Shown piece by piece: positions 5,791-19,174 of a stretch of DNA of 64,000 nt; the stretch's first letter is position 1, and every line of letters starts with the position of its first letter. The stretch lies in contig NZ_JAUZEE010000003.1 of assembly GCF_030705305.1 (NCBI RefSeq), positions 62,001-126,000 on the forward strand, read 5' to 3'. The notes beneath the pieces are model-generated. The model was not told the DNA's origin, made no database searches, and saw nothing but the letters and a program-made list of their open reading frames with translations. Source of the stretch: Leptothrix discophora (lineage in GTDB: Bacteria > Pseudomonadota > Gammaproteobacteria > Burkholderiales > Burkholderiaceae_C). A program made the position numbers and the translations under genes.

Positions 5791-6585
5791 TCAGTGACGC
5801 TTGCCACAGACCGGGCAGGCGGCATCACGGCCGACGCGGATCTCGGTCCATTCGAGCGTGCGGCCGTCGAGCATCTGCAGCCGGCCGGCCAGCGAGGTGC
5901 CGATGCCGGCCAGCAGCTTGAGCGCCTCGGCTGCCTGCATCGTGCCGATGATGCCGACCAGCGGCGCGAACACGCCCATCGTGGCGCAGCGCACCACCTC
6001 CATGCCGGCATCCGGCGGGAAGACGCAGGCGTAGCAGGGATGGGCCTCGCCGCGGCTGTCCCACACCGAGATCTGGCCGTCGAAGCCGATCGCCGCGCCC
6101 GAGACCAGGGGCTTGCGATGCGCCACGCAGGCCGCGTTGACGGCATGGCGGGTGGCGAAGTTGTCGCTGCAGTCGAGCACCACGTCGGCCTCGGCGACCC
6201 AGGCATCGAGCAGCGCCGCGTCGGCGCGCTGCTGCAGGGCCCGCACGCGCACCTCGGGGTTGAGCGCGGCGACCGTGGCCGCCGCCGACGTCACCTTGGG
6301 CCAGCCCACGCGCGCATCGGTGTGGGCGATCTGGCGCTGCAGGTTGGTCCGGTCGACGGTGTCGTGGTCGGCCAGCGTGATCGTGCCGACACCGGCGCTC
6401 GCCAGATAGAGCAAGGCCGGCGAGCCCAGACCGCCCGCGCCGATCACCAGCGCATGCCCGCGCACGATGCGGCGCTGGCCTTCGACGCCGAGGTCGTCGA
6501 GCAGGATGTGACGGCTGTAGCGCAGCAGCTGGTCGTCGTTCAGGTCGTCCTGCGGATCGGCGGGGCGGGGCGTGTTCGTGTCCAT
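5791..6585 (-). CDS. moeB: Molybdopterin-synthase adenylyltransferase MoeB / ThiF-family E1-like enzyme
   Basis: 264 aa. Adenylates the C-terminal glycine of a small sulfur carrier (MoaD or ThiS) for molybdopterin or thiamine synthesis. Visible are the nucleotide-binding GAGGLGS (49-55), the substrate segment with DNFATRHAVN, a structural zinc site made by CYAC (183-186) and CPVC (257-260), and Cys199 in RCATMGVFAP. Length matches the short MoeB form without a rhodanese domain. It follows the ctp protease gene on the same strand, but a hairpin between them suggests separate transcription. ThiF cannot be excluded from sequence alone, because one enzyme often serves both pathways. Confidence 0.85.
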   Translation of the reverse strand: MDTNTPRPADPQDDLNDDQLLRYSRHILLDDLGVEGQRRIVRGHALVIGAGGLGSPALLYLASAGVGTITLADHDTVDRTNLQRQIAHTDARVGWPKVTSAAATVAALNPEVRVRALQQRADAALLDAWVAEADVVLDCSDNFATRHAVNAACVAHRKPLVSGAAIGFDGQISVWDSRGEAHPCYACVFPPDAGMEVVRCATMGVFAPLVGIIGTMQAAEALKLLAGIGTSLAGRLQMLDGRTLEWTEIRVGRDAACPVCGKRH

Positions 6586-6634
6586 GCCGCAAGGATAGTC
6601 AGTGACGGCGGGCCATCGTGTGGACAGGAACGAC

Positions 6635-6656
6635 CGAGGGGCCCGCAGGCCCCTCG
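6635..6656. terminator. Hairpin downstream of ctp
   Basis: A 9-bp perfect stem (CGAGGGGCC, 6635-6643, pairs with 6648-6656) with a 4-nt loop, 27 nt past the ctp stop. No U-run follows. It could end the ctp transcript or attenuate read-through into moeB. Confidence 0.6.
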
Positions 6657-6682
6657 TGTCATGGCGCGGCGCGTGCGGCCGG

Positions 6683-8146
6683 TCAGTTCGTCGCGGCCTC
6701 GCCGGGCTTGCGCTCGACCTGGGTCTTGCTCACCTGGACCGGCTTGCCCTTGAGGCGATTGAGCGCCTGCTGGAGCTGGAAGTCCTCGTTGGAGCCGAAC
6801 TCGGGCAGGCGCGGCGGCGCCTTGTCCTTGTCCTTGCCGGCGGCGTTGCTGGCTTCCTCGAGCTTGCGCAGGGCTTCCTCGCGGGCCTTCTCGCGGGCCG
6901 CATCCTTCTTCGCGTCGCTGGCACCGGCGGCCGCACCCAGGTGGCGGTCGAGGTCGGCCTCGCGCATGCGCAGCACGGCGTAGGGGCTGCCCTCGGCCGT
7001 CTCGTCGACCAGCACGTCCGGCACGATGCCCTTGGCCTGGATCGACTGGCCCGACGGCGTGTAGTAGCGCGCCGTGGTGATCTTCAGCGAGGTGTTGGGC
7101 ATCGGCAGGCGGGTCAGCTCGCTCTGCACCGAGCCCTTGCCGAAGGTCTGCGAGCCCATGATCACCGCGCGCTTGTGGTCCTTCAGCGCGCCAGCCACGA
7201 TCTCGCTGGCCGAGGCCGAACCCTCGTTGACCAGCACCACCACCGGCACGTTCTTGATCAGCGCCGGGATGCTGGCCAGCACGTCGTTGCCATCACGCGA
7301 GTAATAGGCCGGCGCCGCACGCAGCGAACTGCGCGACTCGGCGATCTGGCCGTTGGTCGTGACGACCACCGCATCGCGCGGCAGGAAGGCCGCCGACACG
7401 CCCACCGCGACGTCGAGCAGGCCGCCCGGGTCGTTGCGCAGGTCGAGCACCAGGCCCTTCAGGCCGGGCTCCTGCTTGAAGATGTCCTTGAGCTGCTCGG
7501 CGAAGTCGCGCAGCGTCGGCTCCTGGAACTGGTTGATGCGGATCCACGCATAGCCCGGCTCGACCACCCGCGAGCGCACGCTCTTGGTCTTGATCTCCTC
7601 GCGGACGATGCTGACCGGGAAGGTGCGGTTCTCGGCCTTGCGCAGGATGGTCAGCATCACCTTGGTGTTGCTCGGACCGCGCATGCGCTTGATCGCCTGG
7701 TCCATCGTCAGGCCCTTGACGGCCGTGTCGTCGATGCGGGTGATCAGGTCGCCGGTCTTGACGCCAGCGCGGTCGGCTGGCGAGCCCTCGATCGGCGAGA
7801 CCACCTTGACCAGGCCGTCTTCCATCTCGATCTGGATGCCCACGCCGGTGAACTTGCCGCTGATGCCCTCGTGGAATTCCTTGAAGGCCTGGCCCTCGAA
7901 GTAGGCCGAGTGCGGATCCAGCCCGGCAACCATGCCGCCGATGGCGTCACGGATCAGCTTCTTCTCGTCGACCGGCTCGACGTAGGAGCGCTTGACGAGG
8001 TCGAAGACCGCCGCGAGCTGCTGCATGTCCTCGATGGGCAGCGGCGACATCGCGCTGCGCGCGGTGGCCTGCAACTGCATCGTCGCCAGCGCTCCGGCCA
8101 CCGCACCTGCCAGGACCCAGCCTGCCACCTTCAACTTGCTACCCAT
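6683..8146 (-). CDS. ctpA: Carboxy-terminal processing protease (S41 family)
   Basis: 487 aa. A serine protease with a Ser-Lys dyad acting in the periplasm on C-termini of envelope proteins. An N-terminal membrane/signal segment (about 7-25) is followed by a PDZ domain (about 95-170) and the S41 protease core. The nucleophile lies in NEGSASASE (307-315) and the general base is Lys337 in GSQTFGKGSVQ. A charged, Ala/Lys/Glu-rich linker (about 410-455) and a conserved tail LQQALNRLKGKP complete it. Length is normal for proteobacterial CtpA. A good -10-like hexamer (TATACT on the minus strand, 8198-8203) lies about 50 nt upstream of the start, but no matching -35 box is evident. Confidence 0.93.
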   Translation of the reverse strand: MGSKLKVAGWVLAGAVAGALATMQLQATARSAMSPLPIEDMQQLAAVFDLVKRSYVEPVDEKKLIRDAIGGMVAGLDPHSAYFEGQAFKEFHEGISGKFTGVGIQIEMEDGLVKVVSPIEGSPADRAGVKTGDLITRIDDTAVKGLTMDQAIKRMRGPSNTKVMLTILRKAENRTFPVSIVREEIKTKSVRSRVVEPGYAWIRINQFQEPTLRDFAEQLKDIFKQEPGLKGLVLDLRNDPGGLLDVAVGVSAAFLPRDAVVVTTNGQIAESRSSLRAAPAYYSRDGNDVLASIPALIKNVPVVVLVNEGSASASEIVAGALKDHKRAVIMGSQTFGKGSVQSELTRLPMPNTSLKITTARYYTPSGQSIQAKGIVPDVLVDETAEGSPYAVLRMREADLDRHLGAAAGASDAKKDAAREKAREEALRKLEEASNAAGKDKDKAPPRLPEFGSNEDFQLQQALNRLKGKPVQVSKTQVERKPGEAATN

Positions 8147-15212: not shown

Positions 15213-16286
15213 ATGGAGACCTTCTACGAGGTGATGCGGCGCCAGGGCATCTCGCGGCGCAGCTTTCTCAAATACTGTTCGCTGACCGCGACGTCGCTGG
15301 GGCTGTCGCCGGCCTTCGTGCCGCAGATCGCCCATGCGATGGAAACCAAGCCGCGCACCCCGGTGCTGTGGCTGCACGGGCTGGAATGCACCTGCTGCTC
15401 GGAGAGCTTCATCCGCAGCGCGCATCCGCTGGCCAAGGACGTCGTGCTGTCGATGATCTCGCTCGACTACGACGACACGCTGATGGCCAGCGCGGGTCAC
15501 CAGGCCGAGGCCATCCTCGAGGAGGTGATGACCCGGTACAAGGGCAACTACATCCTCGCCGTCGAGGGCAACCCGCCGCTCAACCAGGACGGCATGAGCT
15601 GCATCATCGGCGGGCGCCCCTTCGTCGACCAGCTGCGCCACGTCGCCAAGGACGCCAAGGCGATCATCAGCTGGGGCTCCTGCGCCAGCTGGGGCTGCGT
15701 GCAGGCGGCCAAGCCGAACCCGACGCGGGCCACGCCGGTCCATCAGGTGATCACCGACAAGCCCATCATCAAGGTGCCCGGCTGCCCGCCGATCGCCGAG
15801 GTGATGACCGGCGTCATCACCTACATGCTGACCTTCGACCGCATCCCCGAGCTCGACCGCCAGGGCCGGCCGAAGATGTTCTACAGCCAGCGCATCCACG
15901 ACAAGTGCTACCGCCGGCCGCACTTCGACGCCGGCCAGTTCGTCGAGCACTTCGACGACGAGTCCGCCCGCCGCGGCTACTGCCTCTACAAGGTCGGCTG
16001 CAAGGGCCCGACCACCTACAACGCCTGCTCCACGGTGATGTGGAACGAGGGCACCAGCTTCCCGATCAAGGCCGGCCACGGCTGCATCGGCTGCAGCGAG
16101 GACGGCTTCTGGGACAAGGGCTCGTTCTACGACCGCCTGACCCACATCCACGCCTTCGGCGTCGAGGCCAACGCCGACCAGGTCGGCGGCACCGCGGCCG
16201 GCGTGGTGGGCGCCGCAGCGGTGGCGCATGCCGCCGTCTCGGCCATCCGGCGGGCCGGCTCGGGCCGCACCGACGCGCCGCGCTGA
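15213..16286 (+). CDS. hoxK: Oxygen-tolerant membrane-bound [NiFe] hydrogenase, small subunit
   Basis: 357 aa. Electron-transfer subunit of the H2-oxidising enzyme on the periplasmic face. A twin-arginine signal (SRRSFLKY, 14-21) is followed by a cleavage site near AHA-METK (42/43). With mature numbering the proximal-cluster cysteines are 17, 19, 20, 115, 120 and 149, the six-cysteine set of the 4Fe-3S cluster that gives Ralstonia MBH its O2 tolerance; sensitive enzymes have Gly at two of these. A C-terminal hydrophobic helix (about 325-345) anchors the protein to the cytochrome b subunit HoxZ. ATG 15213 has AGGAGA about 7 nt upstream. First gene of the operon. Confidence 0.97.
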
Positions 16287-16323: not shown

Positions 16324-18180
<1,857 letters not shown>

Positions 18181-18215
18181 GCGCGCGCCCCGATCGACAC
18201 CCCAAGGAGACACGC

Positions 18216-18422
18216 ATGACACGCAACAAGACCTGGGCCGCCGCAGTGGGCCTGATGCTGGCCGGCGGAGCCTCGGCGCATGGCGGCCACGGCACCGAGA
18301 ACCCTGTGCACGACCTGGGCGCCGAGCTGCTGCGCACGCTGCAGGGCGAACCATCGCTGACGCTGTGGCTGGCGTCCGCCGCCGTCGTCGTCGGCCTGGC
18401 CCTGGCCAGGCTCAGCCGCTGA
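18216..18422 (+). CDS. Small exported/membrane protein of unknown function between hoxG and hoxZ
   Basis: 68 aa, not recognised. It has a strong ribosome-binding site (AAGGAGA) 5 nt before ATG 18216, a signal peptide with predicted cleavage ASA-HGGHG (21/22), a short mature part with three histidines in the first 11 residues (22, 25 and 32), an amphipathic stretch (LGAELLRTLQ), and one C-terminal membrane helix (about 49-65) ending in Arg-Leu-Ser-Arg. Spacing is 35 nt from hoxG and 17 nt to hoxZ, so it belongs to the operon and should be made in amounts close to the structural subunits. I know of no counterpart at this place in the Ralstonia hox or Rhodobacter hup operons. It could be an accessory subunit of the HoxKGZ complex or a periplasmic metal-handling peptide; both are guesses. 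Confidence 0.75.
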   Translation: MTRNKTWAAAVGLMLAGGASAHGGHGTENPVHDLGAELLRTLQGEPSLTLWLASAAVVVGLALARLSR

Positions 18423-18439
18423 GCCACCGGGGAGAACCC

Positions 18440-19174
18440 ATGAGCCCCACCACGCTCGAACGCCGCCTGGCCGATGCCACCGGCATCGACGACGCGGCCG
18501 TCGCCGCCGCGCCGTCGATCAAGTCGGTCTACGTCTATGAAGCGCCGGTGCGCATCTGGCACTGGGTCAACGCGCTGGCCATCACGGTGCTGGCCGTCAC
18601 CGGCTACGTCATCGGCGCACCGCTGCCGACGATGCCCGGCGAGGCCAGCGACCATTTCCTGATGGGCTACATCCGCTTCGCCCACTTCGCCTCCGGCTAC
18701 GTGCTGGCGGTCGGCCTGCTGGGCCGGATCTACTGGGCCTTCGTCGGCAACGCCCATGCCCGCGAGCTGTTCACGCTGCCGGTCCTCAGCCGGGCCTACT
18801 GGCGCGAGGTGCTGACCATGCTCCGGTGGTACGCCTTCCTGGTGCCGCAGCCCAACCAGTACGTCGGCCACAACCCGATGGCGCGGCTGGCGATGTTCTT
18901 CGGCTACTTCCTGGTCACGCTGTTCATGGTCTGCACCGGCTTCGCGCTGTACGGCGAAGGCGCGCAGGCCGGCTCCTGGCAGAGCCGCCTGTTCGGCTGG
19001 GTCATCCCGCTGATGGGCCAGAGCCAGGACGTTCACACCTGGCACCGCCTGGGCATGTGGTCGCTGGTGGTCTTCGTGATCCTGCATGTGTACGCGGCCA
19101 TCCGCGAGGACATCATGGGTCGGCAGAGCATCGTCAGCACGATGATCTCGGGTCACCGGACCTTCAGGAAATGA
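18440..19174 (+). CDS. hoxZ: Hydrogenase-anchoring cytochrome b subunit
   Basis: 244 aa. Di-heme b-type cytochrome that anchors HoxKG and passes electrons to the quinone pool. Four transmembrane helices are visible (about 37-60, 75-100, 150-171, 203-222). Histidines suitable as heme ligands are His41 (RIWHW), His82 (RFAHF), His202 (HTWHR) and His216 (ILHVY). The ~25-residue hydrophilic N-terminus (ERRLADATGIDD) is longer than in E. coli HyaC. A GGGGAGAA ribosome-binding site precedes ATG 18440. The stop overlaps the hoxM start in ATGA, so the two are translationally coupled. Confidence 0.95.
   Translation: MSPTTLERRLADATGIDDAAVAAAPSIKSVYVYEAPVRIWHWVNALAITVLAVTGYVIGAPLPTMPGEASDHFLMGYIRFAHFASGYVLAVGLLGRIYWAFVGNAHARELFTLPVLSRAYWREVLTMLRWYAFLVPQPNQYVGHNPMARLAMFFGYFLVTLFMVCTGFALYGEGAQAGSWQSRLFGWVIPLMGQSQDVHTWHRLGMWSLVVFVILHVYAAIREDIMGRQSIVSTMISGHRTFRK

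Follow-up and report, generated by a model that had tools for sequence, protein, structure and literature searches.

A 68-aa gene, probably a reduced hupE, between hoxG and hoxZ of Leptothrix discophora

A gene of 68 amino acids (aa) located between hoxG and hoxZ in Leptothrix discophora is very probably a real protein-coding gene under weak constraint and probably descends from a hupE that once lay between the same two genes. It was found in a stretch of 64,000 nucleotides (contig NZ_JAUZEE010000003.1, positions 62,001 to 126,000), hereafter the window. The likeliest reading of the peptide is a reduced form at a HupE locus, not a newly arisen, isolated invention; similar cut-down versions of HupE seem to have arisen several times, and the stump that is left may have its own job. 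The observation on which the initial annotation of this gene was built is confirmed and its interpretation is partly supported.

Sequence features and coding status of the 68-aa gene

The gene (18216..18422, + strand) runs from an ATG at 18216 to a TGA at 18420-18422, beginning 35 nt after hoxG (16324..18180, + strand; hydrogenase large subunit, 618 aa; Pfam NiFeSe_Hases, 706 bits) and ending 17 nt before hoxZ (18440..19174, + strand; b-type cytochrome subunit, 244 aa; Pfam Ni_hydr_CYTB, 107 bits), with a Pfam-confirmed hoxK at 15213-16286. The ribosome-binding site is well placed, as annotated, with AAGGAG six bases upstream of the ATG (18204..18209, + strand), and hoxZ has a GGGGAG of its own (18429..18434, + strand). 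The encoded peptide consists of MTRNKTWAAAVGLMLAGGASA followed directly by HGGHGTENPVHDLGAELLRTLQGEPSLTLWLASAAVVVGLALARLSR, the inferred cleavage site (A-x-A rule only) falling between the two parts, before His22. The predicted signal peptide comprises residues 1-21 and ends in GASA (18216..18278, + strand). The predicted mature N-terminal peptide, HGGHGTENPVHDLGAELLR, opens with His-Gly-Gly-His-Gly (18279..18293, + strand) at the point where three HupE proteins of the same genus have HTGHG, and a hydrophobic helix at mature residues 27-43 (18357..18407, + strand; Kyte-Doolittle window and AlphaFold2) is followed by a basic C-terminus, LALARLSR. AlphaFold2, with an input of two sequences, placed helices at residues 2-21, 30-44 and 46-66 with moderate confidence (mean pLDDT 67.9). 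The description of a predicted exported, His-rich, one-helix peptide between hoxG and hoxZ is borne out, and the peptide is indeed unrecognised, with 0 Pfam or NCBIfam families at E ≤ 1. The long overlapping frame, annotated as a shadow frame, is the same frame as that of the gene, open upstream through hoxG (GTG 16476 to 18422). An inverted repeat (GGCTCAG-CCG-CTGAGCC, 18409-18425) spans the stop codon just ahead of the hoxZ Shine-Dalgarno sequence, and the corresponding 7-bp hairpin is absent from the S. mobilis fold.

The case for a gene had been made to depend on a homologue in the same position and on dN/dS. The single clear protein match among related genomes is in Sphaerotilus mobilis (L001; also L003 from G007, taken as the same genome), where a 68-aa copy, 62% identical and free of indels, occupies the hoxG-hoxZ gap and is preceded by an AAGGAG in the corresponding position. 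The occurrence of this 68-aa form in S. mobilis rules out an assembly error in the window. The two copies give a Nei-Gojobori omega (dN/dS) of 0.52 (bootstrap 0.28-0.95; P(omega ≥ 1) = 0.016), and for the mature part alone it is 0.60, with an interval that reaches 1.20 (0.28-1.20; P = 0.078), while the two other frames of the stretch give 1.06 and 1.65. In 3000 runs of a neutral simulation, 57% of frames stayed open (substitution alone), 0.7% had an omega at or below the observed value and 0.4% combined both. Taken together, the indel-free copy, the omega and the simulation make coding under weak constraint very probable. For the same pair of genomes, the omega of the neighbours is 0.11 (HoxK), 0.10 (HoxG) and 0.14 (HoxZ), and dN is 0.29 for the peptide against 0.04 for HoxZ.

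The hoxG-hoxZ junction in related genomes

Within the family, 73 of 399 genomes have a HoxG match at E ≤ 1e-60, and the best 60 of the 80 places other than the window's own were read. A full HupE/UreJ nickel permease of 189-208 aa occupies the hoxG-hoxZ gap in 38 of these 60 places (37 of the 46 best matches, L032-L077), a small form in six, and neither in 16. Gaps with a full HupE measure 623 to 1002 nt (36 of 39 between 600 and 820 nt, L104 included) and their ORFs encode a signal peptide, mostly H(P/T)GH, and then HPxGLDHLLAM; the junction protein of L048 matches PF04955 (HupE_UreJ) at 7.7e-45, and a PF04955 search locates such ORFs in place. At L105 (G446, a genome 77% complete) the junction HupE seems frame-shifted, with its N-terminal part and its C-terminal 73 aa in different frames.

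The window's genus contains all three states. HoxG is present in eight of its 13 genomes, of which four have a full HupE at the junction (G001, on contig C32, G005, G008 and G010), two the 68-aa form (the window's genome, G000, and S. mobilis) and two, G011 and G012, neither form, with gaps of 139 and 19 nt. As these last two lack the gene, the hydrogenase does not strictly need the 68-aa peptide. A second hoxG copy in G001, at a contig edge (L084, G001:C26:1123-3323), is followed by a 746-nt gap before a HoxZ-like match, with no HupE frame.

Beyond the family, neither HupE nor a small form was seen at the junction in any of the 31 places read in the order (L107-L137; 31 of 51 HoxG places, own and G142 excluded). 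In the class, HoxG occurs in 26 of 369 genomes, and the 20 of 25 non-own places that were read comprise four small forms, five full HupE, called by eye (L162, L167, L171, L173 and L176), and 11 with neither. According to the initial annotation, the known Ralstonia hox and Rhodobacter hup operons have no gene at this position, which holds for Cupriavidus necator H16, with a hoxG-hoxZ gap of 65 nt and no gene inside, but not for the 38 family places above or for two Rhodobacterales plasmids: a HupE/UreJ protein is annotated at the junction in Fuscovulum ytuae, and the unannotated record of Paracoccus denitrificans has a full HupE there by sequence reading. Likewise, a 'HupE/UreJ family protein' is annotated between the large subunit and cybH on plasmid pEP1 of Acidovorax temperans. 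No gene is annotated at the junction in Azospirillum oryzae or in Paraburkholderia aromaticivorans, and the Azospirillum HupE is located upstream of the small subunit instead. On pEP1 (L144), cybH and the gene for the maturation endopeptidase are separated by an annotated gene for a HigA-family antitoxin. No description of a gene between hoxG and hoxZ was found in the open-licence literature.

In the inspection of this gap in relatives that had been suggested, the 118 classed junctions, a sample that follows the HoxG searches and is not random, divide into 51 with HupE (one frame-shifted), 13 with a small form and 54 with neither. These are the 118 of 126 junction entries placed in the HoxZ tree, with L003 excluded as the same genome as L001, and L082, L084, L085, L087, L091 (which has a HupE-like frame), L110 and L175 excluded for a HoxZ read of 150 aa or less; the frame-shifted L105 was coded as full and L089, with an odd match order, as none. 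The fewest switches between full and small forms are nine on this tree and six on a bootstrapped tree for the family clade, which has 62 rows (range 5-7 across the 1000 bootstrap replicates), counts that horizontal transfer and the poor resolution of the HoxZ trees can inflate.

Other small forms and the relation to hupE

The 13 small forms span 65-101 residues, with one or two helices, and include, besides the window and S. mobilis, L033, L034, L081 and L106 (all of genus g131), L036 (G345), L044 (G023), L046 (G184) and four from other families of the class (L157 and L160, of one genus, L164 and L168), so that small proteins occur at the junction in three further families (f60, f125 and f191). 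A signal peptide ending in A-x-A is found in 12 of the 13 (L168 has L-S-A) and a net basic flank behind the helix in 11; all 13 have a hydrophobic helix and a His as the first residue behind the probable cleavage point, though the first small-form detector was an AHxGH-type pattern and the common N-terminal His is thus partly a selection effect. Four of the forms (L036, L157, L160 and L168) were found by three-frame reading of the gaps. Neither Pfam (window and nine other small forms) nor NCBIfam (window and six others) gave anything over the curated cut-offs, in a Pfam scan that recognised full HupE as a positive control, and tblastn of two small forms against plasmids (E ≤ 10, low-complexity filter on) returned no match.

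Several of these proteins are intermediate between HupE and the 68-aa form. L046 derives from hupE by a simple internal deletion and consists of the HupE N-terminus joined to the last two helices (0/300 and 0/2000 shuffles as good), which shows such an origin for at least one small form. L044 probably keeps both ends of HupE (0/300 and 1/2000 shuffles as good). The four g131 forms match HupE residues 1-40, that is the N-terminus and first helix (0/300 shuffles as good for each), and retain an H-x4-D/E/Q-H pattern. At L036 (G345:C1:70296-72496), the small protein is continuous with HoxZ in a stop-free frame of 326 aa that begins 26 nt after the hoxG stop and in which HoxZ retains its own AGGAG and ATG; either the two have fused naturally or a stop codon has been lost.

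Constraint on the small forms is not uniform. L157 and L160 have 78 codons each, without indels, at 42% identity and an omega of 0.53 (0.23-0.98), and the first 72 columns of L033/L034 give 0.17 (0.04-0.48). Trimmed values are 0.53 for L033/L081, 0.49 for L034/L081 and 0.45 for L081/L106, with HoxZ likewise high in two of these pairs (0.48 for L033/L081; 0.44 for L081/L106). It is the untrimmed pairs L033/L106 (0.88), L034/L106 (0.92) and L044/L046 (1.09) that argue against uniformity.

For the window peptide itself, the mature part does not score above shuffles against the HupE HMM (25/300 as good; S. mobilis, 216/300; L036, 25/300), so the case for a HupE origin rests on position, the mature N-terminus and the intermediates. 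The gene lies between hoxG and hoxZ, as hupE does, and on its sequence the peptide has a signal peptide and then a His-rich mature N-terminus in the manner of HupE/UreJ (ASA/HGGHGTE against ..A/HTGHGTE); HGGHGTE agrees with the same-genus HTGHGTE or HTGHGTD in six or five of seven residues. An anchored-split HupE score using both ends gives p = 0.010 for the window and p = 0.030 for S. mobilis, two values that are not independent. At the DNA level, the window gap matches the hupE of L090 (G001) near the N-terminus with an uncorrected p = 0.005, five HupE loci having been tried; the match to L041 (p = 0.025) is not collinear, and L048 (p = 0.305), L055 (p = 0.225) and L104 (p = 0.10) are not significant. 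The matches of the S. mobilis gap DNA are not collinear with the hupE start. The peptide does not match PF04955 and so falls outside the HupE/UreJ permease family as such, and it lacks HPxGLDH and LHGxAHGxE, metal-binding motifs of the membrane core that are present in same-genus HupE.

Proposed role, alternatives and known systems

The explanation placed first, which taken whole stands at about even chances, is that a hupE was reduced while keeping its outer metal-binding end and one helix. On this sequence evidence, the 68-aa peptide is most likely a stump that is anchored in the membrane, binds metal on the periplasmic side and is under weak selection. Removal of the signal peptide would free the N-terminal His, which with His4 and His11 would be exposed to the periplasm in a short amphipathic segment anchored by a single membrane helix, N-out and C-in, so that the outer end of HupE would be retained without the pore. 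Next to the hydrogenase, such a peptide may bind nickel or a different divalent metal at the membrane, and it may either deliver the metal to a distinct uptake system or lie against HoxZ. As the permease core is missing, it is very unlikely to transport nickel alone. HupE/UreJ-2 proteins elsewhere carry metal-binding domains with an N-terminal His, according to PMC12537917, and small exported proteins with His motifs occur beside HupE/UreJ genes, according to PMC9973294. In the initial proposal of a nickel- or copper-binding periplasmic peptide, the nickel link continues to be the best lead, the peptide itself now appearing to be a reduced HupE.

Some of the genomes have PF04955 genes away from the junction. 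Outside the hydrogenase operon, the window's genome contains one strong PF04955 match (C27:66017, 177 bits), a weaker neighbour of it and a further weak match on C22, and a PF04955 match above 170 bits lies elsewhere in six of the nine family genomes with a small form, with only a weak one (39 bits) in G023. S. mobilis (G007) and G142 have no PF04955 match at E ≤ 0.001 and no NicO, so a HupE partner cannot be general; NicO is found in none of the nine family small-form genomes and in 12 of 40 genomes overall. A second PF04955 match above 130 bits is present in nine of 26 full-HupE genomes, and no claim is made for a link between a small form and a second HupE (6/9 against 9/26). The PF04955 genes on C27 stand in tandem (L138, G000:C27:60000-72000, at about 5973-7201; 177 and 38 bits), at a locus separate from the hydrogenase, and similar tandem pairs occur in G378 and G184.

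That full copy on C27 may also have made a junction hupE redundant, in which case the 68-aa gene would be a decaying remnant, a stump open by chance or kept because translation through it aids hoxZ by coupling. The weak omega of the window pair, the untrimmed values near 1 for L033/L106, L034/L106 and L044/L046, the two of eight same-genus genomes without a gene and a 17-nt spacing to hoxZ that suits coupling are all in keeping with decay. It is nevertheless a rather unlikely account: the frame is open and indel-free in both species, a frame both open and this constrained arises neutrally with P = 0.004, and L157 and L160 have held 78 codons without indels under an omega whose interval stays below 1. 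As for coupling, the RNA across the hoxZ start shows no recurrent structure, and the groups do not differ there (mean z of 0.18 for small, -0.03 for full and -0.44 for none, with hoxZ starts set by a rough rule that put the L157 start clearly inside the small gene).

The initial annotation had also suggested a fourth subunit of the HoxKGZ complex. In that role the peptide would pack on the cytochrome b HoxZ and steady it or its quinone site, with the HupE origin as history only. CydX plays such a small-subunit role for cytochrome bd. This suggestion gains from the in-frame run into HoxZ in G345, from a compatible topology (the small protein would be C-in and the HoxZ N-terminus lies in the cytoplasm), from the similar small proteins in f60, f125 and f191, and from the two small-form genomes with no other HupE or NicO. 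It loses by the absence of the gene from C. necator and from the same-genus G011 and G012; moreover, the retained AGGAG and ATG indicate that the fusion may not be obligatory, the position beside hoxZ is inherited from hupE, and the peptide evolves far faster than HoxZ. A fourth subunit is judged unlikely. Repeated reduction, constraint on several of the frames and the HoxZ-fused frame leave room for a possible small-subunit role, and a bolder form of it, itself doubtful, would have the permease repeatedly and independently cut to a one-helix periplasmic His hook that acts as a HoxZ-bound auxiliary subunit of the O2-tolerant hydrogenase (fused in one lineage), forming an unnamed small-subunit family whose members occupy the hoxG-hoxZ junction across several families of the class. 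Highly improbable is a nascent-chain metal sensor whose export state tunes hoxZ translation to periplasmic metal, on the model of the Rhodobacter capsulatus CutF, which regulates the gene behind it according to copper and whose relatives with only His motifs adjoin HupE/UreJ genes (PMC9973294). The hairpin ahead of the hoxZ Shine-Dalgarno sequence in the window would suit such a sensor, but it is not shared by S. mobilis, structure is not a property of the group and the peptide lacks the proline-rich C-terminal motif.

If the small proteins work, a transporter has been repeatedly reduced to its outer metal-binding end and a part of a much-studied class of O2-tolerant hydrogenases has been overlooked; if they are stumps, they record the repeated loss of a permease beside the enzyme it once served. 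The full, small, fused and absent states in close relatives also form a ready comparison for the role of the HupE N-terminus.

Among known systems, the CutF-like proteins (PMC9973294) are similarly small and exported, with a metal-type motif and a place upstream of an operon gene, and their His-type members adjoin HupE/UreJ, whereas the 68-aa peptide has no proline-rich end and no conserved stem-loop and so does not group with them. The Ang-1/Ang-2 domains of HupE/UreJ-2 (PMC12537917) also expose an N-terminal His after cleavage next to a permease-type membrane part, but are folded domains ending near residue 175-184, whereas the peptide offers about 26 residues and one helix with putative metal binding. 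DUF6732 (PF20506), for which no mention was found in the open-licence literature, is likewise a small family, and L033 and L106 score 19 bits against it (E about 0.001), but this is below the curated cut-off of 27 and the window peptide has no match at E ≤ 1, which places it outside that family. Small subunits of the CydX type are short one-helix proteins encoded beside respiratory enzyme subunits; CydX, however, lacks a cleaved signal peptide and does not derive from a permease. The HupE/UreJ permease (PF04955) has about six helices where the peptide has one, together with the HPxGLDH and LHGxAHGxE motifs and the PF04955 match that the peptide lacks, but the two have in common the operon position, a signal peptide, a mature start of HxGHG and a place in the membrane.
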